This document shows positions 24,775 to 39,098 of a stretch of DNA of 45,125 bases, one piece after another. The stretch lies in contig NZ_JNKO01000021.1 in NCBI RefSeq assembly GCF_000702885.1, positions 1 through 45,125 of the forward strand, written 5' to 3'. Every line of letters starts with the position of its first letter. Positions within the stretch are counted from its first letter, which is position 1. The translations under genes and the position numbers were made by a program. Source of the DNA: Oribacterium sp. P6A1 (GTDB lineage Bacteria; Bacillota; Clostridia; Lachnospirales; Lachnospiraceae). The notes below the pieces were generated by a model that did not search any database, was not told the DNA's origin, and saw nothing but the letters and a program-made list of their open reading frames with translations.

Positions 24775-25773
24775 ATGAAGCTGATTAAGAAAAAAATATC
24801 AATTCTCATGATGATAATGTCTATGGCAGTGTTGCAGTCAGGTTGTGGGCAGTCATTAAATACACCGGCTGTATCGGATACGGTTTCGGAATCCGAAATC
24901 GAAGAAGAAACTCAATCAGGAACGGAAACTGATTCAGAAACTGAATCTAAAGCTGTAAATGAGTATGAATCCGCAACAGTCAGTTATCTGGGACCTGAGG
25001 GAACATATACCCAGGAAGCCTGCGGTGTGTTTTTTGACAAGAAGGGTAAATATATACCATATAAGACGGTTGCTGAGGCAGTGGAAGCACTGGTAAACGG
25101 AGAAAGTGAGTATGCTGTGATTCCTCAGGAAAATACCATTGGAGGAGCTGTTATAGATTATGTTGACATCCTCATCGGACAGAAAGATGTTTCTGTTGTG
25201 GGTGAGGTGGAACTCCCTATCAATCAGAATCTCCTTACTTTGCCCGGGACAAAACTTGAAGAAATAAAAAAAGTTTACTCTCATAAACAGGGAATTGCCC
25301 AGGGAAAAGACTGGCTGAAATCCAACCTTCCCGGTGCAGAGATCATAGAGGTTTCCAGTACAGCCGAGGGAGCTAAGCTTGTGGCGGAAGAAGGGGATAC
25401 TTCAAATGCTGCAATTGCATCAGCGGCCTGCGCCGATGTATACGGATTGGAAGTTCTCGCTGAGAGCATCCAGAATAATGACAGTAATAAAACCAGATTC
25501 TATGTTCTTTCAAAGAATGAGCCTTCTCGGGAAAAAAGTGACAGGATGGCTTTTGTAGCGTCCGGAAAAGCAGAGGATCTTCCGGAACTCATGGATGATC
25601 TTGAAGATTCAGAAATGAAACTTGTAACCATCCATGACAGACCGAGAAAAACAGAGCTTGGAGAGTATCATTATATTATCGAGTGCTCGAACGCCGGCTA
25701 TGATGATTACGAAAAACTCACAGAAAAGCATCCCTTTGAGTTTAGATTCCTGGGGGGCTTCTCATTGAAATGA
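24775..25773 (+). CDS. exported (putative lipoprotein) prephenate dehydratase with ACT domain
   Basis: 332 residues. A signal peptide of 23 residues ends at Cys24 (VLQSGC; -3 is Gln, so the lipobox is not fully canonical), then an acidic Ser/Thr/Glu linker to about residue 67. From 'ATVSYLGPEGTYTQEAC' a complete prephenate dehydratase domain follows, with 'VIPQENTIGGAV' and the catalytic TRF motif in 'NKTRFYVL', then an ACT-like domain ('MAFVASGKAEDLPELM', 'VTIHDRPRKTELGEYHY') in which the usual ESRP phenylalanine-binding motif reads HDRP. Prephenate dehydratase normally works in the cytosol, converting prephenate to phenylpyruvate; outside the membrane it may have become a binding protein or act on extracellular prephenate/arogenate. 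It is monocistronic, 92 bases after jetC. Confidence 0.8.
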   Translation: MKLIKKKISILMMIMSMAVLQSGCGQSLNTPAVSDTVSESEIEEETQSGTETDSETESKAVNEYESATVSYLGPEGTYTQEACGVFFDKKGKYIPYKTVAEAVEALVNGESEYAVIPQENTIGGAVIDYVDILIGQKDVSVVGEVELPINQNLLTLPGTKLEEIKKVYSHKQGIAQGKDWLKSNLPGAEIIEVSSTAEGAKLVAEEGDTSNAAIASAACADVYGLEVLAESIQNNDSNKTRFYVLSKNEPSREKSDRMAFVASGKAEDLPELMDDLEDSEMKLVTIHDRPRKTELGEYHYIIECSNAGYDDYEKLTEKHPFEFRFLGGFSLK

Positions 25774-25953: not shown

Positions 25954-26832
25954 CTATTTATCTTTACTATTGAAGTGATCATATATCTTTTGATACAGGT
26001 CCTCCACCACAGGAGATATGGTACTTCTGGGCCAGGCCATGGAAATCTTCAGCTCTCCGCCCAGGTCCATGGTATGGATATTCGGATGATGTACACCTTC
26101 ATACCAGGAATCAAGAACAGCTACACCCAGGCCGTTTTCAACAGATGCGAATACTGTGCTTATATTCGGTACAGCAAGAAAACGGGGGATGAAGCTGTAG
26201 GGTTTAAACATTAGCGCTATATCCTGACAAAGTTCGGCAACCTTTGGGTCATCCATCATATAGAAGGTGTAATCCTTGAAATCTGCGGGAGTTTTGATGT
26301 TTTCGAATCCAGGGAGTTTTTCCGAATAGGTTATGATACGTTTTATGGACGTGAAGTTCTGTCTCAAAAGATCCGAGCGTCCCTCCATATAATCATCTGT
26401 GCAAATGATGGCGTCCAGATGCTTATCATCAAGACCCTGCAAAAGATCCCGGAAGCTGATACATTCCAGTGAGATTTCAAAATTCGGATGGTCTTTTCTG
26501 TATGCTTCAATAACATCCGGCAAAAAGGATGACATATCCCAGCCCACGTTATATCCAAGTCGAAGACTTGTCATGCTATGGGAAAGCATCTTTCTTATGT
26601 TTATAAACTCCGCGTAATATCTCTGGAAAAAATTGAAGTACAGCTTGCCTTCATCCGATAAGGTGATATGACGGCTGTTTTCGCGTATGAAAAGAGTAAC
26701 CCCCAGTTCCTGCTCCAGGGCAGAAATATAGCGGCTGATGGCGGGCTGGGGCAGATAGAGATTCTGTGCGGCCTTTGTAAAACTCTGATGTTTTCCTGTT
26801 TCTAAAAATGCTTCAATCTGTTTATCATTCAT
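25954..26832 (-). CDS. LysR-type transcriptional regulator
   Basis: 292 residues from ATG 26832, where the product starts MNDKQIEAFLETGKH as LysR proteins do. A start 12 codons earlier (26868) lacks a ribosome binding site. N-terminal winged HTH ('SFTKAAQNLYLPQPAISRYI', residues about 16-35, and 'LEQELGVTLFIREN'), then a periplasmic-binding-like effector domain (about 90-290). It lies downstream of the LVIVD gene on the same strand (127 bp) and next to the divergent catabolic operon, so it is the probable regulator of that island, sensing its substrate or an intermediate. Confidence 0.9.
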   Translation of the reverse strand: MNDKQIEAFLETGKHQSFTKAAQNLYLPQPAISRYISALEQELGVTLFIRENSRHITLSDEGKLYFNFFQRYYAEFINIRKMLSHSMTSLRLGYNVGWDMSSFLPDVIEAYRKDHPNFEISLECISFRDLLQGLDDKHLDAIICTDDYMEGRSDLLRQNFTSIKRIITYSEKLPGFENIKTPADFKDYTFYMMDDPKVAELCQDIALMFKPYSFIPRFLAVPNISTVFASVENGLGVAVLDSWYEGVHHPNIHTMDLGGELKISMAWPRSTISPVVEDLYQKIYDHFNSKDK

Positions 26833-26959
26833 GAGGACATTATAGCAGAAATGTTTTTGCAGAGGCATGGATTATTGAAATATAACAACATTCCCGGACC
26901 AATCAAAGATCCGGGGATATAAGGAGAATAAAAAACAGGTTATTTGGGGAAAATAATCA

Positions 26960-28333
26960 TCAAACGAGGCACTTCAGAATATAAATACCGTCGTGCATTG
27001 CATTAAGGTATATATAACCTCTGTCGTCAACTACAAGATCTTCTGCGGTTCCGAGAGGCTTGTTAGGCATCTTCACATCGAAGCAGAGCTTCTCAGGGTT
27101 AGGAGGAATGAAGTATGCGATCTCCTTTGGAACGTATGGATCGCTAATGTCATAGACCCTGAGTCCTGCGTGGAAATAGCAGTCATAGGCTCTGTCGCTT
27201 CTGTCCTCAAGCCATGGCTTTCCTGTCATAGGCTCATGAAGGTTGTGGGGACCGAAGGATGTGGGGTATCCGTATCCAAGGTCGTTGAAGTTCTTGTAAG
27301 GGAAGTTCTCAGGAACCTCAGGATAAGGAAGAACAGAGATGAGTACAGGATCCTCAGGATCTGATATATCGAACATTTCGATACCGCACATAGCCTGAAC
27401 ACCGAATTTCTCAAAATCCTTTCTGTTGTAGGTCCACTGACGCTCGCCTTCCTGCATTCCGATGGCATACTTTGTGCCGTGAATAGGCATGAAGGTATGA
27501 CACAGAGCGCCACCGAACTTGGTTGCAAAAGGAGGCGTCATTTTTGCTTCACCGATGACCTGTGGCCACTCAGGATTTGAAACATCCAGAATCATAAAGC
27601 CTGCGCCGGCACAGCTTAAGTATGCTGTGTCTCCGTCAACATAAGGGAAATGAACAAATCCCGGATAGGTATTGTAACCCTGCCAGCCGTTCCATTCCTT
27701 TTCTCTTGTTTTCTTTGTCTGATTTCCGTAGAACTGTCCCGGATTCCACCAGCGCCCAACTTCCTTGGGATTTGTCGGGTCGGAAATATCTACTATTCTG
27801 TAAATGAAATCCTTAAATCCTACAGCGGTTGCGGAAAGATGGAGATATTTGCCTCCGTTATAGGTGAATCGGTGAACTCCTGCACCGGGGTTATCAGTGT
27901 CTCCGGTCGCCCAGAAGGAAAGCTTTTTAGGATGTTCCGGATCTTCCTTAAGTGAGAAAATATGAACTCCGCCTGGAGCCGGTGTGTACTTTTCAGGAGC
28001 CGGTCCGTGAAGGAATTCAAGGCAGTTTCCGTTGGAAACAATCATTAAATCATCCGCGATCTGAACCTTGGGTGTTGACATGTATGGATACTTCTCGGGA
28101 TCCATAACGGGCATGTACTGTACATGACGTGGATGTGCAGGATCTGTTACCTCTATGATCTCAACACCGTAGCCGTAGAAACATCCGCCGTAAAGATAGT
28201 AGCGGCCGTCCCCGGTCTTATAAAGCTGTGACTGGAAAAGATAGTGGTTGTCCGCATCATGGTAAGCCACAACCTCCATATTCTTTATATATCCCTCATT
28301 TCCGGGACTCTTCGCATAGAATTTTTCGCTCAT
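26960..28333 (-). CDS. LVIVD-repeat beta-propeller protein, unknown function
   Basis: 457 residues from ATG 28333 (GGAGG seven bases upstream). It contains repeated blades of the form 'VEIIEVTDPAHPRHVQYM', 'YRIVDISDPTNPKEVG', 'FMILDVSNPEWPQVIG', 'IEMFDISDPEDPVLIS' and 'LRVYDISDPYVPKEIA', the signature of LVIVD beta-propellers. There is no signal peptide, so it should be cytosolic, unlike many LVIVD proteins. Conserved His/Trp/Cys outside the repeats ('GVHRFTYNGGKYLHLSATA', 'GALCHTFMPIHGTKY', 'SFGPHNLHEPMTGKPW') look like an enzyme active site. It is divergent from the EthD-fold gene. I infer an enzymatic or scaffold role in the catabolic island; no function is established. Confidence 0.75.
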   Translation of the reverse strand: MSEKFYAKSPGNEGYIKNMEVVAYHDADNHYLFQSQLYKTGDGRYYLYGGCFYGYGVEIIEVTDPAHPRHVQYMPVMDPEKYPYMSTPKVQIADDLMIVSNGNCLEFLHGPAPEKYTPAPGGVHIFSLKEDPEHPKKLSFWATGDTDNPGAGVHRFTYNGGKYLHLSATAVGFKDFIYRIVDISDPTNPKEVGRWWNPGQFYGNQTKKTREKEWNGWQGYNTYPGFVHFPYVDGDTAYLSCAGAGFMILDVSNPEWPQVIGEAKMTPPFATKFGGALCHTFMPIHGTKYAIGMQEGERQWTYNRKDFEKFGVQAMCGIEMFDISDPEDPVLISVLPYPEVPENFPYKNFNDLGYGYPTSFGPHNLHEPMTGKPWLEDRSDRAYDCYFHAGLRVYDISDPYVPKEIAYFIPPNPEKLCFDVKMPNKPLGTAEDLVVDDRGYIYLNAMHDGIYILKCLV

Positions 28334-28773
28334 ATATAACCTCCAAATTATAAAAATCAATCTAAACAGTAACTTTAAAATTCAGTGTATTGGTAGTATC
28401 AGTTCCATAAATGTACCGTTGAATTCTAAAATCCCTGACGGAACTGTTTGCCGATGCTGAAAGTCTAGCGGATAAAGGTTCTTTCCGTCCAATATCTAAC
28501 TTTTTCGAAATCTATAACAGATTTGTTATGGAAAGTCGCGAATATTGATATTTTTTCTTCAAAGTCAGAAATGATATATTAGCGTCACCGCAAAGATGCA
28601 CAAATAAAAAGCGTTAGCAAAGCCTAACTTAGTGCATGATGCGACATTAAGAGAAAGGTTTAACGTCATTGTGCATATGATATGCGACTGACAGAAATCC
28701 TTTTGTCGTGGCTTATGTCGGGTTCCTGAGTAGACAGGAAGAACCGATTTTATAAGACAACGGAGGTTTAATT
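28334..28773. promoter_or_regulatory. divergent control region with candidate LysR operator
   Basis: 440 bp between the LVIVD gene (-) and the EthD-fold gene (+), no gene inside. It contains ATAAC-N6-GTTAT (28514-28529), a classical dyad form for LysR-type operators; a palindrome GCATAT-G-ATATGC (28673-28685); and a leader hairpin TCGGGTTCCTG / CAGGAAGAACCGA (about 28717-28746) just ahead of the EthD gene's ribosome binding site. Which protein binds here is inference. Confidence 0.45.
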
Positions 28774-29625
28774 ATGGCTTACGACTTTAATATCATGAGA
28801 AGTCTTATTTATGTGGGACTTGCAAAGGAAGAGTACAGACCGAAGCTTGAGCACTGGCTTTACTATCATCATGTACCTGAGAGCATCAGCAAGTTCACAC
28901 CTTATGTAACGAAGTATGCATTTTATCAGTGTTATCCTACACCACCTGAAGGTGACAGATTCGGTGCCAGAAAGATGCAGCTGACTGAGCACTACTGGAT
29001 GGTGGATGAGCATCTTCCGGAGATGGCAAACAATATTTTCTGCGAGTATATGCCTATGGATGTGCTTCGCTGGCAGGGATGTATTCCGGATGTGGATTCT
29101 GCAACGGTTCATAACAATGCAGACTCCGGAGATGCAGGACGTGCAGCAGGAGGCGGAGATTTCCCGCCATTTATTTTCTCTTTCATTCCCATGAACTGGG
29201 AAGAGGATTTCAAGGGCAAGGGAAGAACTCTTGAAGATGGACCAAACTTCCGCTGGCAGTTCCTGATCCAGTATCCTGAAGGTGTTTCAAAGGAAGAGGG
29301 AGAGAGATGGTTCCACGAGGAAGTGGTTCCTTTCCTTACAGGCAGCGTAAGAGTAAACCGTGTTGTCAGCAGCAGGGTAATGAAGAATTACGGCGCTCCC
29401 GAGGCTCAGTTTGACAGAGTTTGCGAGGTCTGGTTTGAGGGACCTGAAGAGTGGTATGACCTTTGCGTAAATCTTGCAAAGACACATCTTAAGAAGCCTG
29501 AGTGGGCACAGCAGGATGAGTTCCCCTTCTTAAAGCCTCAGCACAACATAGCATCGGTATTCCTTGGCGACAGATGTACATCAGATAATCTGACACAGTA
29601 CAGGGGCTATATAACCATGAGGTGA
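28774..29625 (+). CDS. tandem EthD-like (dimeric alpha-beta barrel) protein, unknown function
   Basis: 283 residues, cytosolic. Two ferredoxin-like EthD/Dabb units are visible. The first is 'YRPKLEHWLYYHHVPESI' with the usual W..xH pattern (about 22-39); the second is 'EEGERWFHEEVVPFLTGS' followed by 'FDRVCEVWFEGPEEWYDL' (about 170-235). Between them lie a His/Asp-rich stretch and a Gly-rich loop (about 110-130). EthD-fold proteins include ring-modifying, decarboxylating and cofactor-independent oxygenase enzymes. Strong ribosome binding site (CGGAGG). As first gene of the plus-strand set, divergent from the LVIVD gene, it is a candidate for the first catalytic step of the island. Function unknown. 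Confidence 0.65.
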   Translation: MAYDFNIMRSLIYVGLAKEEYRPKLEHWLYYHHVPESISKFTPYVTKYAFYQCYPTPPEGDRFGARKMQLTEHYWMVDEHLPEMANNIFCEYMPMDVLRWQGCIPDVDSATVHNNADSGDAGRAAGGGDFPPFIFSFIPMNWEEDFKGKGRTLEDGPNFRWQFLIQYPEGVSKEEGERWFHEEVVPFLTGSVRVNRVVSSRVMKNYGAPEAQFDRVCEVWFEGPEEWYDLCVNLAKTHLKKPEWAQQDEFPFLKPQHNIASVFLGDRCTSDNLTQYRGYITMR

Positions 29626-29781
29626 CAAGGGAGAACACGGCTTTCAGCGGTCAACTGAAAGCAGAGAATGTTCTGATATAGGGCTGTGACCATCTTAAAT
29701 ATAGTTTTCTTAATCCGGTGGGATGAAGAGTGGTTCAAAAGTCGAAAGAAGCAATGGTTTTATTGAAGTAAAGAGGTGAAC

Positions 29782-30489
29782 ATGGAACTTTTGGAAAAAA
29801 CATTGGCAGAAGGAAAAACAAACTTCGTGCTTATAGGTGAGGCGGGCTGCGGAAAATCAGAGATAGCTCTTAATCTTGCAAAAGTTCTTCATGAGCTTTC
29901 TGGAAAGACGGTTCATCTCTTCGATATGGACATGACGAAGCCGCTGTTCAGGTCAAGAGACCTTTTGAACTGCGAAGAACTGTCCGGTGTCACCATTCAT
30001 TTTGAGGAACAGTTCTTTGACGCACCAACCATCGTCGGGGGTGTGAGGGAACTTCTGAAGGACCCGGACAGCCTGGTGGTCATGGACGTCGGCGGCGATG
30101 ACATCGGCGCCAGAGCCATAGGAGGTTTCATGGCAGCGGCGGACAGGAACAGCCTTTATGTCATGTATGTTCTCAATTACTACAGACCTTTCTGTCAGGA
30201 CATAGATCATATCGATCAATTCTTAAGAGAAATCCTTACGGTATCACATCTCGGTACCGAAGATATCCATTTCATAGACAATCCGAATATCGGCATCTCC
30301 ACCACGGAAAATGAAGTGGTGGAGGGTGCTAAACGGATGGATGAGCTTGTTTCAAAGTACAAGCCCATCGAGATGGTTATGGTCAGAAATGAGCTGGAAG
30401 AAGCAGTTCGGGCTAAGCTTCAAGGGACAATACTTTTCCCGGTGCAGCTTTATCTGACCTATGACTGGCTGAAACCGGATATGGCATGA
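29782..30489 (+). CDS. MinD/CobQ-like P-loop ATPase associated with the 2-oxoacid oxidoreductase
   Basis: 235 residues from ATG 29782 (GAGGTG five bases upstream; the preceding GTG is part of that site). Walker A 'GEAGCGKS' (19-26), a switch-like 'DMDMTKPLFRSRDLL' and 'LVVMDVGGDDIGARAIGG' (Walker B region) place it among SIMIBI-type NTPases, with the feel of CooC/MinD nickel or iron-sulfur maturation ATPases, although the paired-Lys deviant Walker A is absent. It precedes the ferredoxin and KorABC-like genes by 114 bp, so a role in maturing or gating that enzyme is plausible but unproven. Confidence 0.7.
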   Translation: MELLEKTLAEGKTNFVLIGEAGCGKSEIALNLAKVLHELSGKTVHLFDMDMTKPLFRSRDLLNCEELSGVTIHFEEQFFDAPTIVGGVRELLKDPDSLVVMDVGGDDIGARAIGGFMAAADRNSLYVMYVLNYYRPFCQDIDHIDQFLREILTVSHLGTEDIHFIDNPNIGISTTENEVVEGAKRMDELVSKYKPIEMVMVRNELEEAVRAKLQGTILFPVQLYLTYDWLKPDMA

Positions 30490-30548
30490 ATAAATAGAGT
30501 CTAAAAGTTGATTCAGGAATGATTTTCCTATGAATACCTTCGCGAAGC

Positions 30549-30582
30549 GTCAGCCCTTTGCGAAGTTATATAAATGGCTGAC
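30549..30582 (+). promoter_or_regulatory. repeated leader stem-loop, copy A
   Basis: GTCAGCC (30549-30555) pairs with GGCTGAC (30576-30582); the loop starts with CTTTGCGAA. It is the same pattern as at 32015 and 37429. It lies 21 bases before the start of the ferredoxin gene. Confidence 0.5.
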
Positions 30583-30603
30583 TTTGATTTTGGAGGTCAG
30601 GAA

Positions 30604-30819
30604 ATGGCAAAGTTCAGAATAAATGTGGTTTCCGAGCGGTGTAAGAGCTGCGGTTACTGCATTAAGTTCTGCCCAAAGCATGTGCTTTCGGTAGGATCAG
30701 AGGTTAATGCTAAAGGCTACGAATATGTGGTAGCGGAAAAGCAGGAGGACTGCGTAGGCTGTCTTACCTGCGGACGTATCTGCCCGGATGGGGCTATAGA
30801 GATTTATAAGGAGGACTGA
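30604..30819 (+). CDS. 2x[4Fe-4S] ferredoxin subunit of 2-oxoacid:ferredoxin oxidoreductase (KorD/VorD-like)
   Basis: 71 residues from ATG 30604, which follows GGAGGTCAGGAA. Two CxxCxxCxxxCP motifs: 'CKSCGYCIKFCP' (about 13-24) and 'CVGCLTCGRICP' (about 49-60). It is the delta subunit that passes electrons from the TPP-containing core to external ferredoxin. One base separates it from the alpha-subunit gene, so the two are translationally linked. Confidence 0.9.
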   Translation: MAKFRINVVSERCKSCGYCIKFCPKHVLSVGSEVNAKGYEYVVAEKQEDCVGCLTCGRICPDGAIEIYKED

Positions 30820-30820
30820 A

Positions 30821-31900
30821 ATGGCAAGAACATTTATGAAGGGCAGTGAGGCTGTTGCGGAAGCTGCTGTACGTGCCGGTTGTCGTTTCTTTGCCGGCTA
30901 TCCCATCACACCTCAGAACGAGGTTCCGGAGTACTTCGCAAGAAGACTTCCCGAGGTGGGCGGAACATTTATACAGGGTGAGTCAGAGGTTGCATCCATC
31001 AATATGGTTTACGGTGCGGCATCTGCAGGTGTCAGAGCCATGACATCTTCATCTTCACCGGGAATCGCACTTAAGAGCGAAGGTATCTCATACTGTGCCG
31101 CAGCCCGTATCCCCATGGTGTATACAAACTTCCAGAGAGGCGGCCCAGGCGTAGGTTCCATTCAGCCTGCACAGATGGATTACTTCGAAGCAACAAAGGC
31201 TTCAGGAAACGGTGGCTTCCAGATGATGGTTCTTGCACCGTCAACAGTGCAGGAGGCTGTGGATCTCACGGTAAAGGCATTTGAACTGGCAGACAGAGAC
31301 AGAAATCCTGTTCATATCCTTGCTGACGGTGTTATAGCCACCATGATGGAGCCTGTAGAGCTTCCGGAGATGATGCCGGAGGAGAAGGTTCAAGAGATAA
31401 GAGAGTCAAAGAGGAAGTGGGCTTTAGTAGGTCACAAGCTTGATTATCAGAACCGTGCATGGATTCAGCCGGGACAGTGGCAGACCACAGTTATGCAGCA
31501 GTGCAATGAGGAAGCAGCAGAGCTCTATGAGTCATGGAAGAAAAATGACGTCATGGTTGAGGAATATGAGCTGTCTGATGCCGAAATCGTGCTCACAGCT
31601 TACGGAATCTCAGCGCGTATCGCAAAGTCAGCTGTTGATATCCTGAGAAAGAAGGGCGTGAAGGCAGGACTTATCAGGCCTATAACATTGAACCCCTTCC
31701 CGACAGAAGCATTTGAGAAACTTGACTACGGACATGTTAAGGCAATTCTTTCGGTGGAAATGTCTATCCCTGCCCAGTATGCAACTGATGTTGAGGCTGT
31801 TGTGAGAAAGCGCTGTCCTGTTGAGAAGTGCTTGTGCTCAGGCGGAAACATTATGTCAAGAGAAGCCGTGATAGAGGCTGTGATGAAGATTATAGGATAA
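30821..31900 (+). CDS. 2-oxoacid:ferredoxin oxidoreductase, alpha subunit (KorA/VorB-like)
   Basis: 359 residues. The N-terminal pyrimidine-binding domain starts 'KGSEAVAEAAVRAGCRFF' with the family motif 'GYPITPQNEVPEY' and 'GESEVASINMVYGAASAG'. The C-terminal part (about 255-359) is the transketolase-C-like domain ('GLIRPITLNPFPTEAFE'). With the delta, beta and gamma subunits it decarboxylates a 2-oxoacid to acyl-CoA and reduces ferredoxin. The four-gene split resembles 2-oxoglutarate and branched-chain 2-oxoacid enzymes; the true substrate cannot be read from sequence. Confidence 0.93.
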   Translation: MARTFMKGSEAVAEAAVRAGCRFFAGYPITPQNEVPEYFARRLPEVGGTFIQGESEVASINMVYGAASAGVRAMTSSSSPGIALKSEGISYCAAARIPMVYTNFQRGGPGVGSIQPAQMDYFEATKASGNGGFQMMVLAPSTVQEAVDLTVKAFELADRDRNPVHILADGVIATMMEPVELPEMMPEEKVQEIRESKRKWALVGHKLDYQNRAWIQPGQWQTTVMQQCNEEAAELYESWKKNDVMVEEYELSDAEIVLTAYGISARIAKSAVDILRKKGVKAGLIRPITLNPFPTEAFEKLDYGHVKAILSVEMSIPAQYATDVEAVVRKRCPVEKCLCSGGNIMSREAVIEAVMKIIG

Positions 31901-31983
31901 ATATCGATACTTGAGATGAATATCGATGTGGGACATCACTTTTAAGTTAGTTAGAAACTCAGTTGGTGATGTTTGAAAAAAAT

Positions 31984-32053
31984 ATGCCGGATTCTACATG
32001 AACCCGGCATGCAGCATCAGCTCTTCGCGGAGCGAATTTTCAATGGGCTGATG
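31984..32053 (+). promoter_or_regulatory. tandem leader hairpins before korB, including repeated stem-loop copy B
   Basis: The gap between the alpha and beta subunit genes is 175 bp, long for subunits of one enzyme. It contains a hairpin ATGCCGG / CCGGCAT (31984-32010) and, directly after, CATCAGC (32015-32021) pairing with GCTGATG (32047-32053), whose loop starts TCTTCGCGG. The second hairpin matches copies A and C. Confidence 0.5.
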
Positions 32054-32075
32054 TTTTCAAAGAAAGAGGCTTTAT

Positions 32076-32819
32076 ATGGCAGAACTTTTATATAGCAGAA
32101 CAAAAAACATCCAGGAAGACAAGGTTTCCGGATTCTGTCCAGGATGTATGCATTCAACCATCATGAAATTGATCGGTGAAGTTATCGATGAGATGGGAAT
32201 CATTGATAAAACTGCGATGGTACTCGGCATCGGATGCTGCGGTCTTCAGATGGATTATATGGCATTTGACAATATCACTGCCCCTCACGGGAGAGCCTGT
32301 GCAGTTGCAACAGGACTTAAGAGAGCTAACCCGGGTACTCTTTACTTTACCTATCAGGGTGACGGTGACCTTGCTTCCATCGGACTTGCAGAGACCATGT
32401 CTGCAGCAAACAGAGGTGAGAACTTCACTGTTATTTTTGTAAATAACGGTATCTACGGCATGACCGGCGGTCAGCTTGCGCCTACAACTCTTTTTGGTAT
32501 GAAGGCAACAACAGCACCAAAGGGACGTATTGCAGAGGAGCATGGTTATCCCATGCATGTGTGCGAGACCCTGAACCAGCTTACAGCACCTCAGTATCTC
32601 GTAAGAACCAGCTGCAACAATCCTGCAAATGTTATGAAAACAAAGCAGGCCATCAGGAAAGCATTTGAATATCAGCTGGCAGGAAAGGGCTTCTCACTTG
32701 TTGAGATCGTAACAAGCTGCCCCACAAACTGGGGACTTGATTCCCTTAAGGCACTTGATTTCCTTGAGGAGAACATGCTGAAGGAATATCCCCTTGGCGT
32801 GATCAGAGATAAGGGCTGA
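32076..32819 (+). CDS. 2-oxoacid:ferredoxin oxidoreductase, beta subunit (TPP-binding, KorB-like)
   Basis: 247 residues. TPP/Mg site 'YQGDGDLASIGLAE' followed by 'NRGENFTVIFVNNGIYGMTGGQ' and the family's 'GFCPGCMHSTIMKLIGE' and 'GIGCCGLQM' cysteine segments near the N-terminus, all as in KorB/VorA. Ribosome binding site AAAGAGG. The gamma gene follows after 14 bases. Confidence 0.93.
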   Translation: MAELLYSRTKNIQEDKVSGFCPGCMHSTIMKLIGEVIDEMGIIDKTAMVLGIGCCGLQMDYMAFDNITAPHGRACAVATGLKRANPGTLYFTYQGDGDLASIGLAETMSAANRGENFTVIFVNNGIYGMTGGQLAPTTLFGMKATTAPKGRIAEEHGYPMHVCETLNQLTAPQYLVRTSCNNPANVMKTKQAIRKAFEYQLAGKGFSLVEIVTSCPTNWGLDSLKALDFLEENMLKEYPLGVIRDKG

Positions 32820-32833
32820 AGGAGGTAAAAATA

Positions 32834-33394
32834 ATGGAAACAAATTTATGTGTAGCCGGCTTCGGCGGACAGGGCGTCATGACCCTTGGAAAATTCCTTG
32901 CTTCAGCTACCTGTGATTCTACAGATAAGAATGTAACATTCTTCCCGTCCTATGGCGCTGAGCAGCGTGGAGGTACAGCAAACTGTTATGTTGTAATTTC
33001 GGATGAACTTATCGGTGCACCTCTCGGGGATGTGATGGACGACCTTATCGTTATGAACGGACCGTCTCTCAACAAGTTCATCGGAACACTGAAGGAAGGC
33101 GGAAGACTTTTCATCAACAGCTCCATCGTAAAGGACAGAATCGAGAGAGATGATATCGAGATCGTTTCGGCACCTGTAACTGAGCTTGCCCTTGAGATGG
33201 GTAATGCAAAGGTCCTCAATGTCATCATGCTTGGTGTATATGTTGGATACACAGAGGTTGTTGCCCCTGAGATTGTCTGGGGAACAGTGGAGCATAAGCT
33301 TTCAAGCAAGCCAAAGCTTCTTCCTCTTAACAAGGCAGCCTTCGACAAGGGCCTTGAGATAGGAAGAGAGTTCAGAGAGAAGAATAAACAATAA
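32834..33394 (+). CDS. 2-oxoacid:ferredoxin oxidoreductase, gamma subunit (KorC-like)
   Basis: 186 residues, CoA-binding domain. Typical opening 'LCVAGFGGQGVMTLGKFLA', then 'FFPSYGAEQRGGTANCYVV' and 'NVIMLGVYVGY'. It completes the four-subunit enzyme. Strong ribosome binding site (GGAGG). Confidence 0.93.
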   Translation: METNLCVAGFGGQGVMTLGKFLASATCDSTDKNVTFFPSYGAEQRGGTANCYVVISDELIGAPLGDVMDDLIVMNGPSLNKFIGTLKEGGRLFINSSIVKDRIERDDIEIVSAPVTELALEMGNAKVLNVIMLGVYVGYTEVVAPEIVWGTVEHKLSSKPKLLPLNKAAFDKGLEIGREFREKNKQ

Positions 33395-33487
33395 AAAGAG
33401 TTGCACAATAAGAAAATGCAGGGGATGTGGGCCAGGCCCCGCCCCGGTCGTTTCTGAATCAAGTGCCTATTTGAAAGGTTAGAACAA

Positions 33488-34399
33488 ATGGTATTTCACA
33501 ATTTCGAAGAACTGATCGCCAAGGTTAAGGGCGAGCCTTCACGAAAGGTCATGGCGGTAGCCTGTGCCAATGATGAACACACTCTTGAAGCAGTTGTTCA
33601 TGCAAGACGTGAAGGAATCGTTGAGCCGTTACTGGTTGGTGACAGAAAGGTAATAAAGGAAATTCTCTCAGGTCTCGGTGAAGAGATTCAGGAGGAAAAC
33701 ATTTACGATGTTCCCATGGAGGACCTTAAGGGAGCCTGCGAAAAGGCAGTAAAACTCGTACGGGATGGCAAGGCTGACTTCCTTATGAAGGGTAAGGTTG
33801 ATACAAAAATCATCCTCAAGGAAGTTGTCAACAAGGAATACGGTCTCGGACAGGGCAAACTCATGTCTCATTTCTCCATCTTCCAGGTTCCGGGCTATCA
33901 CAAGCTTATCGTTCCTGTGGATGGCGGAATGGTACCATACCCTGACCTTCAGCAGAAGAAAGAAATCATTGAAAACACTGTAGATACTCTTGTTTCCATG
34001 GGATATGACTGTCCCAAGGTGGGAGTGCTTGCCTGTGTTGAAAAGGTGAATCCGAAGATGCCTGAGTCAGTGGATGGAGCAGAACTTCAGGCCATGAATG
34101 AGAGAGGCGAGATAAAGAACTGTATCGTGGAAGGACCTATACAGTATGACTGTGCCATGAGAAAAGACATCGCAGATTTCAAGGGACTTGAGTCAAAGAT
34201 CGCCGGTGATCCTGATGTACTGGTTGCGCCCAATATTCACGCCGGAAACATTATGGGAAAGATGTACACCATTAGCTGCGGCGGAAAGATGGCAGGTTTC
34301 ATCGTTGGTGCCAAGTGCCCTATCGTTATGGTTTCCAGAGGCTCTTCAGCAGAAGAGAAATATCTCTCCATCGTGGTATCGGCAGCAGCCAGCAAATAA
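33488..34399 (+). CDS. ptb: phosphate butyryl/acyl-transferase (Ptb family)
   Basis: 303 residues. It converts acyl-CoA plus phosphate to acyl phosphate plus CoA in the cytosol. The sequence matches the phosphotransbutyrylase family: 'LLVGDRKVIKEILSGLG', 'ADFLMKGKVDTKIILKEVV', 'NIHAGNIMGKMYTISCGG'. It lies between the oxidoreductase and the kinase, so its natural substrate is probably the acyl-CoA produced by that oxidoreductase (for example a branched-chain or butyryl-type CoA). Gap of 93 bp with a GC-rich stretch but no T-tailed terminator. Confidence 0.92.
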   Translation: MVFHNFEELIAKVKGEPSRKVMAVACANDEHTLEAVVHARREGIVEPLLVGDRKVIKEILSGLGEEIQEENIYDVPMEDLKGACEKAVKLVRDGKADFLMKGKVDTKIILKEVVNKEYGLGQGKLMSHFSIFQVPGYHKLIVPVDGGMVPYPDLQQKKEIIENTVDTLVSMGYDCPKVGVLACVEKVNPKMPESVDGAELQAMNERGEIKNCIVEGPIQYDCAMRKDIADFKGLESKIAGDPDVLVAPNIHAGNIMGKMYTISCGGKMAGFIVGAKCPIVMVSRGSSAEEKYLSIVVSAAASK

Positions 34400-34416
34400 G
34401 AGATAAATTTGGAAAA

Positions 34417-34435
34417 TGACAGGCAGATAACCTGT
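34417..34435 (+). repeat. small hairpin in the ptb-buk gap
   Basis: GACAGG-CAGATAA-CCTGTC, 20 bases before the start of the kinase gene. No T tail, so not a terminator; it may tune mRNA processing or translation. Confidence 0.45.
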
Positions 34436-34454
34436 CGTGAAGTAAAGGAAATAT

Positions 34455-35522
34455 ATGTTAAACGAAAAAATACTGGTTATAAATCCCGGTTCCACATCTA
34501 CAAAGATCGCAGTGTATCAGGGTGAAGAGCAGCAGTGGACCGAAAGCATTGCCCACAGTCTCGAGGATCTGAAAGCATATCCCACAATCTATGATCAGCT
34601 TGATATGAGAAAGGAGCTTATCCTTGCAAGTCTCGTAAGTCACGGAGACAAGCTTGCTTCATTTGCAGCAGTTGTAGGTCGTGGAGGGGCGCTTCCACCG
34701 GTGAAGACAGGTGCGTATGAAGTTAATGAGAAGATGGTGGAAACCCTTCACTATCATCCTGTAGATCAGCATGCCAGCAATCTGGGGGCAGGAATCGCCT
34801 ACAGCATCGCCAATGAAATCGGCGTTAAAGCTTATATCTACGATGCCATCACCGTTGATGAGATGACTGAGGTCAATAAGATCACAGGCCTAAAGGGTGT
34901 AAGAGTTCCTGCAAAGGGTCACAATCTCAATACCCGTGCAGCAGCTCTCAAACTTTGCAGAGACAAGGGGCTAGATTACAACAAGGTAAACATCATAGTT
35001 GCACATCTCGGCGGCGGAATCACTGTAAACCTTCATTCCAAGGGTAGAATCATTGATTTCTTCAATGATGAGATCGGAACCTTTGCTCCGGAGCGTGCAG
35101 GGGGACTTCCCACCTACGCACTTGTAGATATGTGCTACAGCGGGAAGTATACAAAGGAAGAGATGATGAAGAATCTTCAGCGTCGAGGCGGCATGATCTC
35201 CTATTTCGGAACTGCCGACATGCGCGACGTTGAAAAGCTTATCGATGAAGGAAACGAAGAGGCAGCGCTTCTTTATGAAGCCATGGCTCTGAACACTGCA
35301 AAGACCATCGCCCGTATCGCTCCATCGGTTGACGGACAGGTTGACTGCATCGTTCTCACAGGAGGACTTGCATACTCTGAGCGTTTTGTAAACTCAATCA
35401 GAAAGCATGCCGGATTTGTAGGGCCTATAGAGGTTATCCCCGGGGAGAATGAGATGAAGGCCCTTGCGGAAGGAACCCTCAGAGTGCTTCGCGGCGAGGA
35501 GAAAGCGCGGATTTTTGAGTGA
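34455..35522 (+). CDS. buk: butyrate/branched-chain fatty acid kinase
   Basis: 355 residues, acetokinase family. It makes ATP from acyl phosphate. N-terminal phosphate loop 'ILVINPGSTSTKIAVY', 'NIIVAHLGGGITVNLHSKG', and the C-terminal 'DCIVLTGGLAYSERFV'. Paired with Ptb it forms the substrate-level phosphorylation end of the pathway. Same strand, 55 bp after ptb. Substrate specificity within the family (butyrate, isobutyrate, isovalerate) cannot be read from sequence. Confidence 0.94.
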   Translation: MLNEKILVINPGSTSTKIAVYQGEEQQWTESIAHSLEDLKAYPTIYDQLDMRKELILASLVSHGDKLASFAAVVGRGGALPPVKTGAYEVNEKMVETLHYHPVDQHASNLGAGIAYSIANEIGVKAYIYDAITVDEMTEVNKITGLKGVRVPAKGHNLNTRAAALKLCRDKGLDYNKVNIIVAHLGGGITVNLHSKGRIIDFFNDEIGTFAPERAGGLPTYALVDMCYSGKYTKEEMMKNLQRRGGMISYFGTADMRDVEKLIDEGNEEAALLYEAMALNTAKTIARIAPSVDGQVDCIVLTGGLAYSERFVNSIRKHAGFVGPIEVIPGENEMKALAEGTLRVLRGEEKARIFE

Positions 35523-35561
35523 ATTTAAAGATATAAAAAAGAAGGGTTTAGTGATTAATAA

Positions 35562-36800
35562 ATGAAACAATTAAACAGATGGCTTTATGCCATTGCCGGA
35601 GTGCTGATCCTGCTCTTTGCCGGACTCATCTATGCCTGGTCCGTTCTTTCGGGCCCCATGGCAGCGGAGTATCCGGGATGGAGTAAGGGGGCAATGTCTC
35701 TCTGCTTTACTCTTGCCATGAGCTTTTTCTGTATCGGCGGTCTCGTAGCCGGTCTTTTGGCCGGAAAAGTAAAGGAAAAAGTGATTTTCTTTCTGTCAGC
35801 CATACTGTTTCTGCTTGGATTCTTCCTTGTAAGTAATATGAAAACGCTGATTCAGCTTTACCTTGGTTTCGGCGTTCTTGCGGGCCTTGGCGCCGGATTA
35901 TCCTATAACACTGTTATGGGCTCCGTCACCAAGTGGTTTCCTGATAAAAAAGGTCTTATTTCGGGAATCCTTCTCATGGGTTTCGGAATGGGCGCTTTTA
36001 TAATAGGAAAGCTTTATACAGCTTTAAATCAGACTTTCAGCTGGAGAACAGAATTCAGTGCACTTGGCGTCATGGTTTTCCTGGTGATTCTTTTCTGCGG
36101 GATGATTATCAGAAAGCCAAATGCAGAAGAGATTTCCGGATATGTTACAGCATTCAAAGGGACAGCACAAAAGAAGGGCAATGACTTTACCACAAAGCAG
36201 GTGATAGCAGATCCATCCTTCTGGTTATTCTTTGTTTATGCGGTACTTCTCAGTGCTGCGGCTCTCGCCCTTATCGCCCAGGCAAGGGGAATAGTGACGG
36301 ATACTGCACCGGAACTCAGCGCCGGAAACATTGCCACCATAGTGGGACTTATCTCAGTGTTTAACGGAGTGGGAAGAGTGATCTTCGGCGGGCTTTATGA
36401 CAGGCTGGGACAGAAGATGACAATGCTTCTGAATTGCGCTCTGTACCTGGTCTCGGTGCTTGTGAACCTCGGCGGACTGAAAACCGGAAGCCTTCCGCTC
36501 GTAATTCTTGGCTTTATTCTTTTCGGACTTTCTTACGGAGGAGTTCCCCCAACGAACTCGGCATTTATGATGGATTTTTACGGAACGAAGCATTATCCCG
36601 TAAACTTCTCAATCGTAAATCTGAACCTGCTGTTTGCCTCTTTCGGTGGAACTCTTGCGGGAGTGATCTACGACAGACAGGGAAGTTATATGACCATTTT
36701 CATGATCATGATGGTGGCAGTGGTCATGGCGGTGGTTTGTACCATGCTGATAAAAAAGAACACTACAGCAGCTGAAGAATGTGAAGCACAAATGGGGTGA
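35562..36800 (+). CDS. MFS transporter of the OFA (oxalate/formate antiporter-like) family
   Basis: 412 residues, 12 predicted membrane helices. It begins 'LYAIAGVLILLFAGLIYAWSVLSGPM', with the 'GLGAGLSYNTVMGSVTKWFPDKKGLISGI' loop characteristic of OFA proteins and a second-half 'FNGVGRVIFGGLYDRLGQK' MFS loop. OFA members carry small mono- or dicarboxylates, by antiport or proton symport. In this island it is the likely importer of the substrate or exporter of the fatty-acid product. 39 bp after buk. Confidence 0.88.
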   Translation: MKQLNRWLYAIAGVLILLFAGLIYAWSVLSGPMAAEYPGWSKGAMSLCFTLAMSFFCIGGLVAGLLAGKVKEKVIFFLSAILFLLGFFLVSNMKTLIQLYLGFGVLAGLGAGLSYNTVMGSVTKWFPDKKGLISGILLMGFGMGAFIIGKLYTALNQTFSWRTEFSALGVMVFLVILFCGMIIRKPNAEEISGYVTAFKGTAQKKGNDFTTKQVIADPSFWLFFVYAVLLSAAALALIAQARGIVTDTAPELSAGNIATIVGLISVFNGVGRVIFGGLYDRLGQKMTMLLNCALYLVSVLVNLGGLKTGSLPLVILGFILFGLSYGGVPPTNSAFMMDFYGTKHYPVNFSIVNLNLLFASFGGTLAGVIYDRQGSYMTIFMIMMVAVVMAVVCTMLIKKNTTAAEECEAQMG

Positions 36801-36905
36801 TGGCTTTCGTTATGACCTGCGTAAATACAGAGGGAGCCTGATTAGATCCGGTTCTGCAGGTCAGGCATAAAACGCGCCGGAATACGGTCATAGAGGGATA
36901 TTGAT

Positions 36906-37328
36906 ATGAGGGAAAAAACCCGTTTTTTCAGGTGGAATGTCATTACAAATATCTGTATGGCGCTGTCCATCAATACAACAGCAACCCTTCTTGCAGGAGG
37001 TGACATCCTGTCCGGCTGGGTGAAAGGCTGTTGCTGTGCTTTCACCATCAACACAGTGGCGGCGGTCATCATACCGGTGGGAGCCATCGGTAAATGGTTC
37101 GCAGAGGACCTTTTAAAGACAAAGCCCGGCAGATTTTCTGAGATGCTGGCAAGAAACTTTATCATCAATGCAATTTATGTCACCATAGTGAGCCTTTCCA
37201 TGGCGCTTATCAATGTTGGAGCCGGGGATGAATTCCTGGGCGCCTGGTGGTCAACATACCCCATACTTCATGTGGTGGGGCTGATCACCAGCCTTATTAT
37301 CGAGAAACCGTTAAAAGCATTGGTGTAA
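36906..37328 (+). CDS. DUF2798-like small membrane protein
   Basis: 140 residues, four hydrophobic segments in two similar halves ('ICMALSINTTATLLAGG ... FTINTVAAVIIPVGAIG' and 'FIINAIYVTIVSLSMALINVG ... PILHVVGLITSLII'), as in DUF2798 proteins. Function unknown; may be a small carrier or accessory membrane subunit. Follows the MFS gene by 105 bp. A second, distantly similar gene starts at 38631. Confidence 0.65.
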   Translation: MREKTRFFRWNVITNICMALSINTTATLLAGGDILSGWVKGCCCAFTINTVAAVIIPVGAIGKWFAEDLLKTKPGRFSEMLARNFIINAIYVTIVSLSMALINVGAGDEFLGAWWSTYPILHVVGLITSLIIEKPLKALV

Positions 37329-37383
37329 GCTGTCAGGTTCCACAGAGGTGTATGAGTATATTTCAAATACAGAACATTAAATC

Positions 37384-37463
37384 ATAAGACATTAGCATGG
37401 AGAAAAGCAGTGTCTTATACAAAAATACCGTCAGCCTCGCAAAACGAATACCAAGGGCTGACG
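37384..37463 (+). promoter_or_regulatory. tandem leader hairpins before the flavoprotein gene, including repeated stem-loop copy C
   Basis: First hairpin ATAAGACA / TGTCTTAT (37384-37418), then CGTCAGCC (37429-37436) pairing with GGCTGACG (37456-37463), with the loop starting TCGCAAAACGAA. The two-hairpin layout is the same as before korB. The ribosome binding site AGGAG follows seven bases later. Confidence 0.5.
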
Positions 37464-37479
37464 TAAACAGGAGATTTAT

Positions 37480-38418
37480 ATGAAGATTTTAGGTTTATCT
37501 TTCGGAACAAGAAACGGCAACAACGATACTATGTGCCGCGTTGCTCTCGAGGAGGCACAGAAGCTTGGTGCAGAGATCGAGTTTATCCACGTATTTGACT
37601 GGGATATCAAGTACTGCTCAGGCTGTGTTGCATGTTCAAGAGGTCTTGTTATGGGTAAGGGCATGATCTGTTCACAGAAGGACGATTATGCAGCGCTTTT
37701 TGACAAGATGGCTGAGGCTGACGGTGTACTGGTTGTTGACCCTATCTATGAGTCAGGCGGGTCAGGACTTTTCCATGTCGTATGTGACCGTATGGGTCCG
37801 GGACATGATCTCGGAATGCTTTTCATGGCTGATGCAAAGCTTAAGGAGCAGGGAAAGGAAGGACTCGATCCAAAGTATCTCAGAAAGAAGGCTATTTCTT
37901 TCGTTGGAATCGGTGGTTCCGACTGGGCATGCCGCGTAGAGACAGATCACGCAATGCTTGCCATGAGCCCTTCATGGACAGTTATCGACAATGACTGGTT
38001 CTCATGGTCAAAGGATGTCATCATGCAGGATGACAAGATCGAGAGAATGAAGCAGATCGCACGTAATCTCGTTGAAGCAGCAAAGGATGTGGACAATGCC
38101 AAGTGGCAGGGTAAGGAAGGCGCATGTCCTCATTGCCAGGGCAACAACTTCTATATCTTCCCGGGCACAACTCACTGCGTATGTGAGCTTTGCGGACTTG
38201 AGGGAACACTTGAAGTAGTCAACGGTGCTTTCAAGTTTAAGTTTGACCCTGCCGACGAGCACAAGGCTCACGATACCATCTCGGGAAAGAAGCTTCACGG
38301 CGATGATATCTTCAGAAATGAAGGAAGACTCATGAACCTTAACAAGGATCCTGAGTTCAAGGCACGTAAGATGCACTACACAGCAGTCTGCGCACCTACA
38401 CCAAGCCCAAGCAAGTAA
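37480..38418 (+). CDS. flavodoxin-fold NADPH-dependent FMN reductase-like protein with C-terminal zinc ribbon
   Basis: 312 residues, cytosolic. N-terminal flavodoxin-like domain (1-200): 'ILGLSFGTRNGNNDTMCR' FMN phosphate loop, the family Cys cluster 'KYCSGCVACSRG' (C46, C49, C52) plus C64 before 'QKDDYAALFDKMAEADGVLVVDPIY'. After residue 210 there is an added zinc-ribbon-like module, 'CPHCQGNNF' and 'CVCELCG' (C216, C219, C235, C238), then about 70 residues of unknown type ending in a Pro/Ser-rich tail. Such flavoproteins reduce quinones, nitro-groups, or unsaturated or aromatic substrates. Strong ribosome binding site and well-translated codon pattern suggest high expression. Likely the reductive step of the island; exact reaction unknown. 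Confidence 0.8.
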   Translation: MKILGLSFGTRNGNNDTMCRVALEEAQKLGAEIEFIHVFDWDIKYCSGCVACSRGLVMGKGMICSQKDDYAALFDKMAEADGVLVVDPIYESGGSGLFHVVCDRMGPGHDLGMLFMADAKLKEQGKEGLDPKYLRKKAISFVGIGGSDWACRVETDHAMLAMSPSWTVIDNDWFSWSKDVIMQDDKIERMKQIARNLVEAAKDVDNAKWQGKEGACPHCQGNNFYIFPGTTHCVCELCGLEGTLEVVNGAFKFKFDPADEHKAHDTISGKKLHGDDIFRNEGRLMNLNKDPEFKARKMHYTAVCAPTPSPSK

Positions 38419-38630
38419 GATCGATGCTGAAATCGGCATCACAGAACATATAATTCCTAAGCATTACTTCAGACAGGTAATGCCATAGCCATCAGATGGC
38501 TGAGGGCCGGTATGCATGCTTATCGGACGTACTGCCGTCTGGTGCAGTATTTTTCAATACAGATCACATGGAATGAGTATTCCTTAATAGAACAGTCAAT
38601 AACTGTCATATTTTACAGGAGATTAATCAT

Positions 38631-39098
38631 ATGGAAAAGCCAAGCTTAAAATTCTTTATAGTTTTCAATCTGGTCATGAATATTCCACTGGCAACAGCCA
38701 TGTCCATCGGTGGAATGCTTTTTTCGGGTAATGCTGACAAGCTCCTTACCCCGGCTCTTTTAGTAAATATTTTACTGGGATTTGTGTTTGCATGCATCGT
38801 CAATGCAGCTCTTCCCATCCCCCTTATCGCCATAAGTTTTCCTAAATTATTTAAGATAGAGCCTGAAAGTGTTCCCGGAAGGATTCTCGGAAATGTACCG
38901 GTGGTATTTATCTTCGTGATCATAATCGGACTTGTTATGAATTTTGCCAATGTCCAGGTATTCGGAGGAGCTCCGTTCCCTGCGTTTATCTTTGCATTCC
39001 TTGGCACCTTCATTCCGATGTATGTACTTTGTTTTGTGGTTGCCATGATATTTATCCCCATCGCACAGGGCGCAGCAGGCAAAAGTGTTGCTGCATAA
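38631..39098 (+). CDS. DUF2798-like membrane protein
   Basis: 155 residues, four hydrophobic segments in two halves ('FNLVMNIPLATAMSIGGMLFSG ... FVFACIVNAALPIPLIAISF' and 'VVFIFVIIIGLVMNFANVQVFGG ... FPMYVLCFVVAMIFIPI' region), same architecture as the 36906 gene. Function unknown. Its leader of 212 bp (38419-38630) holds no gene but several short complementary stretches (e.g. AGCCATC-AGATGGCT, about 38486-38500). The last 35 codons are closely repeated at 43677-43781. A strong terminator follows. Confidence 0.65.
   Translation: MEKPSLKFFIVFNLVMNIPLATAMSIGGMLFSGNADKLLTPALLVNILLGFVFACIVNAALPIPLIAISFPKLFKIEPESVPGRILGNVPVVFIFVIIIGLVMNFANVQVFGGAPFPAFIFAFLGTFIPMYVLCFVVAMIFIPIAQGAAGKSVAA

Follow-up and report, generated by a model that had tools for sequence, protein, structure and literature searches.

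A conserved gene set of Oribacterium sp. P6A1 with predicted chalcone isomerase, flavone reductase and Kor-Ptb-Buk functions: a candidate route for flavonol fermentation

Why should a beta-propeller protein and a flavoprotein be encoded beside a four-subunit 2-oxoacid:ferredoxin oxidoreductase, a phosphate acyltransferase and an acyl kinase? These genes lie at 25954-39098 of a 45,125-nucleotide stretch of Oribacterium sp. P6A1 DNA (RefSeq assembly GCF_000702885.1, contig NZ_JNKO01000021.1, positions 1 to 45,125; hereafter the window). The original prediction, made from the sequence alone, took them for an undescribed catabolic island in which an LVIVD propeller protein, an EthD-fold protein and a flavoprotein would supply a 2-oxoacid to KorABCD, Ptb and Buk. 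This proved right in outline: LVIVD protein, chalcone isomerase and flavoprotein look like a front end from which Kor and Ptb-Buk would receive an aromatic 2-oxoacid. The island probably carries out a redox-neutral, ATP-yielding fermentation of quercetin-type flavonols to an arylacetate and phloroglucinol. The substrate class, however, is not undescribed: it is known from chalcone isomerase and flavone reductase (PMC7862272; like the papers cited below, drawn on in part) and a like Kor-Ptb-Buk trio has been published for tyrosine (PMC13285125). What is new is the combination of these known parts with one conserved protein of putative function, LVIVD, that would link both halves.

The gene at 28774-29625, previously read as an EthD-fold protein, instead encodes a bacterial chalcone isomerase (CHI) of the Eubacterium ramulus type, as judged by its domain (PF18232) and its full-length homology to solved structures (PDB 4d06, 3zph, 4d4f and 8b7u, E-values 7.8e-95 to 1.6e-93, with 4d06 best over residues 3-283); these two findings rule out EthD identity. 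The two-domain ferredoxin-like fold of CHI is probably behind the EthD impression. His33, His73, Glu91 and Arg123 (the equivalent of Arg125) are present in all 81 CHI sequences compared, those of the window and of 80 other loci, and at position 36 the E. ramulus enzyme has Asp, the window protein Glu (Asp in 50 of the 81 sequences, Glu in 31). In bacterial CHI, His33 is catalytic, with His73 and a Glu91-Arg125 pair (PMC9694015). Flavanone opening and flavanonol contraction are the predicted activities.

The flavodoxin-fold reductase at 37480-38418 can now be named more narrowly as a homologue of the Flavonifractor plautii flavone/flavonol reductase (FLR), the match to PDB 7d38 (E-value 6.9e-89) covering both domains, including the C-terminal extension (residues 1-307 of 312). 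It keeps Gly106 and Trp149 as well as equivalents of His271 and Ile275 at 273 and 277; mutants of these four residues were strongly reduced in F. plautii FLR (PMC7862272). Met10, Ser14, Trp72 and Lys92, which are flavin mononucleotide or dimer positions, are replaced by T, N, A and S, respectively. Flavone or flavonol reduction is predicted for this protein. Flavone and flavonol degradation is known to involve both CHI and FLR, whose F. plautii genes bear neighbouring locus numbers (PMC7862272). Because of these two identities, the island is, by homology, flavonoid-catabolic. Its features are as follows.

25954..26868, - strand: LysR-type regulator (PF00126 7.7e-19, PF03466 8.3e-18), on the divergent side, adjoining LVIVD
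26960..28333, - strand: LVIVD seven-bladed beta-propeller protein, 457 aa (PF08309 7.6e-11)
28514..28529, no strand: inverted repeat ATAACAGATTTGTTAT, operator-like, between LVIVD and CHI; putative in function
28774..29625, + strand: bacterial CHI, 283 aa (PF18232 3.8e-54)
29776..30489, + strand: P-loop ATPase (PF01656 3.7e-06; CbiA 27.3 bits, barely above the 25.4 cut-off)
30574..30819, + strand: KorD ferredoxin subunit with two [4Fe-4S] motifs (Fer4 families)
30821..31900, + strand: KorA/VorB-type alpha subunit (NF005507 435.6 bits, above the cut-off of 399)
32076..32819, + strand: KorB, thiamine pyrophosphate (TPP) beta subunit (TIGR02177 5.6e-32, below cut-off)
32834..33394, + strand: KorC gamma subunit (PRK08537 2e-27, below cut-off)
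33488..34399, + strand: Ptb-like phosphate acyltransferase (PRK05805 1.2e-95, below cut-off)
34455..35522, + strand: Buk-type acyl kinase (TIGR02707 421.9 bits, above the cut-off of 289.1)
35562..36800, + strand: OFA/monocarboxylate-type MFS carrier (PF07690 1.7e-39; SfMCT model 269.7 bits, below the cut-off of 320)
36906..37328, + strand: DUF2798 membrane protein (PF11391 4.7e-06)
37480..38418, + strand: FLR homologue, 312 aa (PDB 7d38 6.9e-89 over 1-307)
38631..39098, + strand: small membrane protein, without a match in the Pfam search and 76-96% identical in loci L021-L024 and L026-L028
39112..39149, + strand: terminator-like hairpin of 17 pairs, closing the gene set

All open reading frames (ORFs) named in the original prediction are in the ORF list of the island, and family searches bore out its LysR, LVIVD, P-loop ATPase, ferredoxin subunit, MFS carrier and one DUF2798 protein. 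Other labels stood in part. The four-subunit oxidoreductase has all its subunits, with alpha above its cut-off and beta and gamma below theirs; likewise, Buk passes its cut-off and the Ptb-like protein falls below its own. The nearest models to the carrier are those for lactate/OFA transport, as its OFA label had it, at a score under their cut-off; it may be a flavonol importer or a phenolic acid exporter. As for the two supposed DUF2798-like proteins, the label is confirmed at 36906-37328 and may hold at 38631-39098 through a single gene in L018 to which both align (25% and 38% identity, respectively).

The Kor-Ptb-Buk half of the island resembles a published trio. In Clostridium scatologenes, HpdDEFG, HpdJ and HpdK are a hydroxyphenylpyruvate:ferredoxin oxidoreductase, an acyl-CoA phosphotransferase and an arylacetate kinase, and HpdDEFG is active on arylpyruvates with no activity on pyruvate (PMC13285125). 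The window was compared with HpdDEFG by way of Clostridium drakei, whose cluster that paper (2026) calls identical to the C. scatologenes Hpd cluster, and the tie to C. scatologenes rests on this statement. The window alpha, beta and gamma subunits are 74%, 81% and 84% identical to those of C. drakei, Ptb 62%, Buk 52%, CHI 52%, FLR 46% and LVIVD 41%. In C. drakei (L061, L180) LVIVD, CHI, FLR, a DUF1097-like protein, a regulator, Ptb, the P-loop ATPase, KorDABC and Buk are encoded, with the Kor-Ptb-Buk set two genes downstream of LVIVD-CHI-FLR. Flavonol front end and arylpyruvate module thus lie side by side also in a species that has the studied cluster. KorA of the window belongs to the same group as the C. 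drakei Hpd-cluster protein, and an arylpyruvate would be its substrate here as well. Both alpha subunits exceed the VorB cut-off of 399 (window 435.6, C. drakei 433.4), so that this test does not separate valine-type from aryl-type enzymes, and both Ptb proteins lie below the equivalog cut-off of TIGR02706 (410.5; window 313.4, C. drakei 340.5). In L018, IorAB takes the place of Kor, with an alpha subunit above the indolepyruvate oxidoreductase equivalog cut-off (693.3 vs 650.9); this family also acts on arylpyruvates (PMC13285125).

From these parts we propose a five-step pathway, of which steps 1, 2, 4 and 5 are published for relatives; we infer step 3, the role of LVIVD, all substrates in Oribacterium sp. 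P6A1 and the direction of the carrier. FLR would, by homology to a family of known activity, reduce the flavonol to the flavanonol (quercetin to taxifolin). CHI, as known for its family, would open the flavanonol to an alpha-diketone in equilibrium with, or closing to, alphitonin; a diketo tautomer of the taxifolin chalcone has been described (PMC9694015). In the third step, LVIVD would split the phloroglucinol ring from the adjacent carbonyl by hydrolysis, releasing phloroglucinol and 3,4-dihydroxyphenylpyruvate. KorABCD would convert this arylpyruvate, with CoA, into arylacetyl-CoA, CO2 and reduced ferredoxin, as published for HpdDEFG, and Ptb and Buk would, like HpdJ and HpdK, form arylacetyl phosphate and then the arylacetate (3,4-dihydroxyphenylacetate, DOPAC) and ATP. 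By our own arithmetic the net reaction would be quercetin + 2 H2O + ADP + Pi -> phloroglucinol + DOPAC + CO2 + ATP, leaving the water on the ATP side uncounted, and the formulae balance (C15H10O7 + 2 H2O = C6H6O3 + C8H8O4 + CO2). FLR would spend two electrons and Kor would gain two, while C-4 of the flavonol would leave as CO2. The MFS carrier and the small membrane proteins would move substrate or product, and LysR would regulate the divergent pair.

Part of this scheme is already in print. A hypothesis for Catenibacillus has 3,4-dihydroxyphenylpyruvate as the first product from alphitonin, followed by DOPAC or the aryllactate (PMC11170127). It thus contains the same intermediate and the same oxidative branch to DOPAC as our proposal, but comes without genes in the part used here, whereas the island, as a conserved gene set, agrees with it. 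The published flavonol scheme ends at alphitonin and the cleaving enzyme is called unknown (PMC12203004). In the titles and abstract openings covered by our literature search, no LVIVD, Kor or Ptb-Buk gene was named for alphitonin or flavonol cleavage, although full texts could name one.

The gene set is not a chance assembly, as it recurs across genera with different gene orders. CHI was found in 3 of 61 relatives, 5 of 342 genomes of the order and 3 of 398 genomes of the phylum. LVIVD occurs in exactly the same five genomes of the order sample, which represent three genera, and, at E<=1e-100, in exactly the three CHI genomes of the phylum sample, where three weak partial relatives (1e-33 to 1e-37) lie in genomes without CHI. 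KorA at E<=1e-120 is present in the five CHI genomes of the order and in one genome without CHI (G173). Fisher tests for co-occurrence in the order sample, phylogeny being ignored, gave 2.6e-11 for LVIVD and 1.6e-10 for KorA.

Linkage was mapped with tblastn on the best 80 of 114 confirmed CHI loci (given L numbers), some of which share a genome (for instance those of E. ramulus strain 21 and of isolates RUI314 and SUG297) or a species (three Clostridioides difficile records); ORF clustering had dropped genes under long opposite-strand frames. Identities on these maps are to the better of two query sets; the C. drakei values were computed against the window protein. The 80 loci carry FLR in 65 cases, LVIVD in 39, Ptb in 28, Buk in 25, KorA in 23, an OFA-type carrier in 16 and IorA in 8, with KorA and IorA never together; the 31 loci with either of these have Ptb in 27 cases and Buk in 24. 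KorA or IorA is found at 25 of the 39 LVIVD loci vs 6 of the 41 others (p 8e-6, phylogeny ignored). The association of LVIVD and the supposed EthD gene with Kor-Ptb-Buk, on which the original prediction staked itself, is therefore observed, and the linkage of the flavonoid front end to Kor or Ior is not universal. The P-loop ATPase belongs to the four-subunit Kor, since it is present at 23/23 KorA loci and 0/8 IorA loci. Among the loci compared, CHI-linked alpha subunits are at least 71% identical to that of the window except in L034 (63%), and other matches reach at most 57%. A KorA at least 72% identical lies elsewhere in 9 of 17 searched genomes (18 of the 57 CHI loci without KorA) and is missing from the other 8; in F. 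plautii the KorA group occurs elsewhere in the genome, together with Ptb and Buk. Gene order is the same in Oribacterium, Butyrivibrio and Pseudobutyrivibrio relatives where the contig allows. Other orders (L014, L018, L029-L032, L044, L046, L050, L061 and L082) keep the set, and linkage has thus survived rearrangement.

Which protein would cleave the diketone? For LVIVD as the candidate C-C hydrolase acting on the diketone or alphitonin, we put the chance at even. His154, His279, His363, Glu295 and Glu431 are invariant in 30/30 aligned LVIVD sequences, and in the predicted model (pLDDT, the predicted local distance difference test score, 87.4) the three histidines and the acids are at the starts of the strands taken as innermost. 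No obvious signal peptide was seen by eye. The VIA-align list for this model is full of WD40 propellers, evidence of its fold rather than of its function. A PDB sequence match that would name the protein was sought and rejected, as there is just blade-level likeness to 5hrm and 5ioj. For the Sphingobium haloalkylphosphorus hydrolase/phosphotriesterase propeller (5hrm), sequence similarity is scattered across individual blades, WD40 non-enzymes equal or exceed its fold score against LVIVD, and its substrate is unrelated. Several LVIVD-like genes each are present in genomes G782, G772, G790, G797, G800 and G781, perhaps for different flavonoid substrates.

CHI genomes without LVIVD offer a comparison. 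PhyS, a small relative of phloretin hydrolase, was searched for in 41 genomes hand-picked from those with CHI, with LVIVD status taken from genome searches for 23 (the window genome and 22 chosen for a CHI stretch without LVIVD); for the other 18 it was read from locus maps. At E<=1e-50 it is present in 6/6 CHI genomes without LVIVD vs 5/35 with it. PhyS scores below the cut-off of PF18089 (L058 21.1 and L069 18.6 bits; cut-off 22.7) and alone gives no match to a PDB phloretin hydrolase; with one canonical member added to the profile, 5xe5 is matched at 4.8e-07. It has His45, Glu99, His158 and Glu162 in common with the canonical phloretin hydrolase protein, residues that we take to have a metal role. 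More tentatively, with a chance somewhat below even, LVIVD may represent a C-C bond hydrolase of a new class, an auronol/diketone hydrolase for the unassigned step of flavonol breakdown, replaced in other lineages by a protein of phloretin-hydrolase fold, flavonols being, with Kor or Ior and Ptb-Buk, a redox-neutral, ATP-yielding substrate and the published "tyrosine" Hpd trio being at least partly a flavonol set.

A number of observations weigh against the proposed pathway or against the part given to LVIVD in it. The similarity of LVIVD to 5hrm and 5ioj runs blade by blade; LVIVD proteins beside CHI fall into four groups at 58% identity and that of C. drakei is only 41% identical to that of the window, so that one function for all is an assumption. 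At the looser threshold of E<=1e-5, PhyS matches rise to 14/35 LVIVD genomes (p 0.009), although the extra matches are 28-49% identical and are perhaps of the full-length type. Since five genomes carry both LVIVD and PhyS, side by side in Clostridium puniceum, the two may act at different steps. No Kor or Ior gene lies on the fetched stretch at 14 of the 39 LVIVD-bearing CHI loci, and 6 of the 41 loci without LVIVD have one linked. In E. ramulus, which is reported to degrade quercetin via alphitonin (PMC11170127), LVIVD and Kor are present but unlinked to CHI, with no Ptb or Buk on the 20 kb retrieved. The window genome also has a full-length PF18089 gene away from the island that matches phloretin hydrolase 5xe5 at 3.1e-20 and could itself perform step 3. 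It is quite possible, at a chance well short of even, that the pathway is right but that this unlinked enzyme cleaves the diketone, with LVIVD binding the auronol or acting on it as an isomerase or lactonase. From a dihydrochalcone, phloretin hydrolase does release phloroglucinol plus an aryl acid (PMC12203004), and the PhyS matches in LVIVD genomes point the same way. On the other hand, LVIVD tracks CHI in two genome samples (the PF18089 genome search covered the window genome only, so this is no equal comparison), the full-length PF18089 type is found at only 5 of the 80 CHI loci (L046, L060, L065 and L091 clearly, L097 weakly), and PhyS covers all six tested CHI genomes without LVIVD.

Other doubts concern the second half of the island. 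The Kor-Ptb-Buk trio may serve amino acids: HpdDEFG, HpdJ and HpdK were assayed on tyrosine-derived substrates, hydroxyphenylpyruvate among them, and their genes were induced by these and on tyrosine, with no mention of 3,4-dihydroxyphenyl compounds in the parts of the paper relied on here (PMC13285125). The word "flavonoid" is absent from its main text. In other gut anaerobes, oxidoreductase loci with Ptb and Buk homologues have been tied to the oxidation of amino acids (PMC13290082), and G173 has the KorA group without CHI. That the trio is a tyrosine/phenylalanine fermentation module merely lying beside a flavonoid module is nevertheless unlikely, as there is no aminotransferase among the island ORFs, five of the six KorA-positive genomes of the order are CHI genomes, and two enzyme types, Kor and Ior, occur beside CHI but never both. 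We consider it improbable that Kor burns a housekeeping 2-oxoacid to provide low-potential electrons for FLR, with Ptb-Buk just recycling the acyl-CoA. The alpha subunit does score as VorB and the complete electron chain of FLR is described as still to be explored (PMC7862272), but VOR-type enzymes with an aromatic preference are published (PMC13285125, PMC13290082), and this explanation leaves unaccounted for both IorAB in the same place and the co-occurrence with CHI and LVIVD. A reversed flow, in which Buk-Ptb would activate an arylacetate and Kor would carboxylate it to the arylpyruvate for aromatic amino-acid synthesis, is very improbable. Rumen bacteria do carboxylate phenylacetate for this purpose, and the relatives include rumen-type genera; the C. 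scatologenes pathway is reported to be thermodynamically reversible at every step (PMC13285125). Such a reversal, however, leaves CHI, FLR and LVIVD without a role.

Flavonol fermentation, the reading that we prefer, differs from the known systems in several respects. The F. plautii/E. ramulus degradation of flavones and flavonols (FLR, CHI, EnoR/Fcr, Phy; PMC7862272, PMC9694015, PMC11868195) shares with the island FLR and CHI homologues that keep the catalytic residues, and in F. plautii (L040) FLR, CHI and LVIVD lie together as they do here; to this scheme the island adds LVIVD, Kor, Ptb and Buk in one operon-like set. The C. scatologenes Hpd trio consists of the same gene types as the island, but is described for the conversion of tyrosine to p-cresol (PMC13285125), and no 4-hydroxyphenylacetate decarboxylase was seen among the ORFs of the window island. 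In C. drakei three genes for this decarboxylase, each above its equivalog cut-off, directly follow Buk. The enzyme would turn DOPAC into 4-methylcatechol, and flavonol-derived DOPAC could be decarboxylated by the same cluster in that species. In the rumen, 4-methylcatechol is formed from quercetin (PMC8780962).

Among dietary polyphenols, flavonols of the quercetin type are common, and DOPAC is a main product formed from them in rumen fluid and by several gut bacteria. The gene set offers candidates for alphitonin cleavage (the hydrolase), for the lost carbon (oxidative decarboxylation) and for the energy gain (the kinase), and genomes or metagenomes could be scored with it for DOPAC-forming flavonol degradation. 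If the proposal is true, the arylpyruvate-oxidizing trio known from amino-acid fermentation would have a new substrate source.

The fate of phloroglucinol was also considered. The Clostridium nigeriense locus L058 (47-16503, approximately 16.5 kb) contains SDR, cyclase, BKACE, 3HCDH, PhyS, FLR, CHI, Ptb, IorAB and Buk genes with sigma-54-type regulators in between, and is possibly a complete flavonol degradation cluster. Its SDR, BKACE and 3HCDH types are those of the C. scatologenes phloroglucinol cluster (PMC10470551), and in L058 they are joined by CHI, FLR and the trio; the cyclase assignment is our own. Phloroglucinol use by the window organism was rejected, as no homologue of the L058 cyclase was found at E<=1e-10 in its genome or in seven other CHI genomes, although a divergent enzyme could escape such a search: F. 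plautii, which is said to have a phloroglucinol cluster (PMC10470551), gave just a partial match of 4.8e-11. Since the window genome lacks a cyclase homologue at this threshold, phloroglucinol may perhaps be excreted, which would make the kinase the sole ATP-forming step from the flavonol.

CHI and FLR genes also lie outside Bacillota, in two Leptolinea metagenome-assembled genomes (MAGs) of the Chloroflexota (L042, L043) and a Deltaproteobacteria MAG (L065), which suggests lateral transfer of these genes. The two Leptolinea records have FLR, CHI, LVIVD, IorAB, Ptb and Buk. On C. difficile contigs L035, L036 and L089, LVIVD, FLR and CHI lie close together with a DUF1097 membrane protein; the genome of L035 has no Kor of the CHI-linked group (best match 50%).

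Within the window, all genes from CHI to the last of the set lie on the + strand, with gaps of 1-212 bp. The LysR orthologue is 67-97% identical and likewise beside LVIVD in L009-L013. Ten of the 16 columns of the inverted repeat at 28514-28529 are invariant across 8 aligned intergenic regions; its pattern has a single site in the window, but was derived from this site, so that the shuffle control is not independent. Terminator-like sites number 21 in the 14 kb scanned vs 11.4 in shuffles, and a single site says little.

Extension of the island was rejected on both sides. To the right, 39502-43055 (- strand) encodes an alpha/beta-hydrolase-like protein, a DcuC-type carrier (PF03606 1e-62) and a second LysR, apparently a separate set: the hydrolase and carrier have no match in L009-L014 and L018-L020, and the second LysR matches only other LysR genes, weakly. 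To the left, the prephenate dehydratase-like gene at 24775-25773 has as its sole match among the loci the window's own stretch. Encoded on the + strand, its product has a prephenate dehydratase domain (PF00800 4e-62) after a lipoprotein-like signal MKLIKKKISILMMIMSMAVLQSGC (judged by eye), and would thus be an apparently exported enzyme of the chorismate pathway, which is odd. Just left of the island and outside the set, 20279-24682 (+ strand) encodes a 1467-aa JetC3/DUF3584-type protein that is Wadjet-like (PADLOC 2.4e-105).

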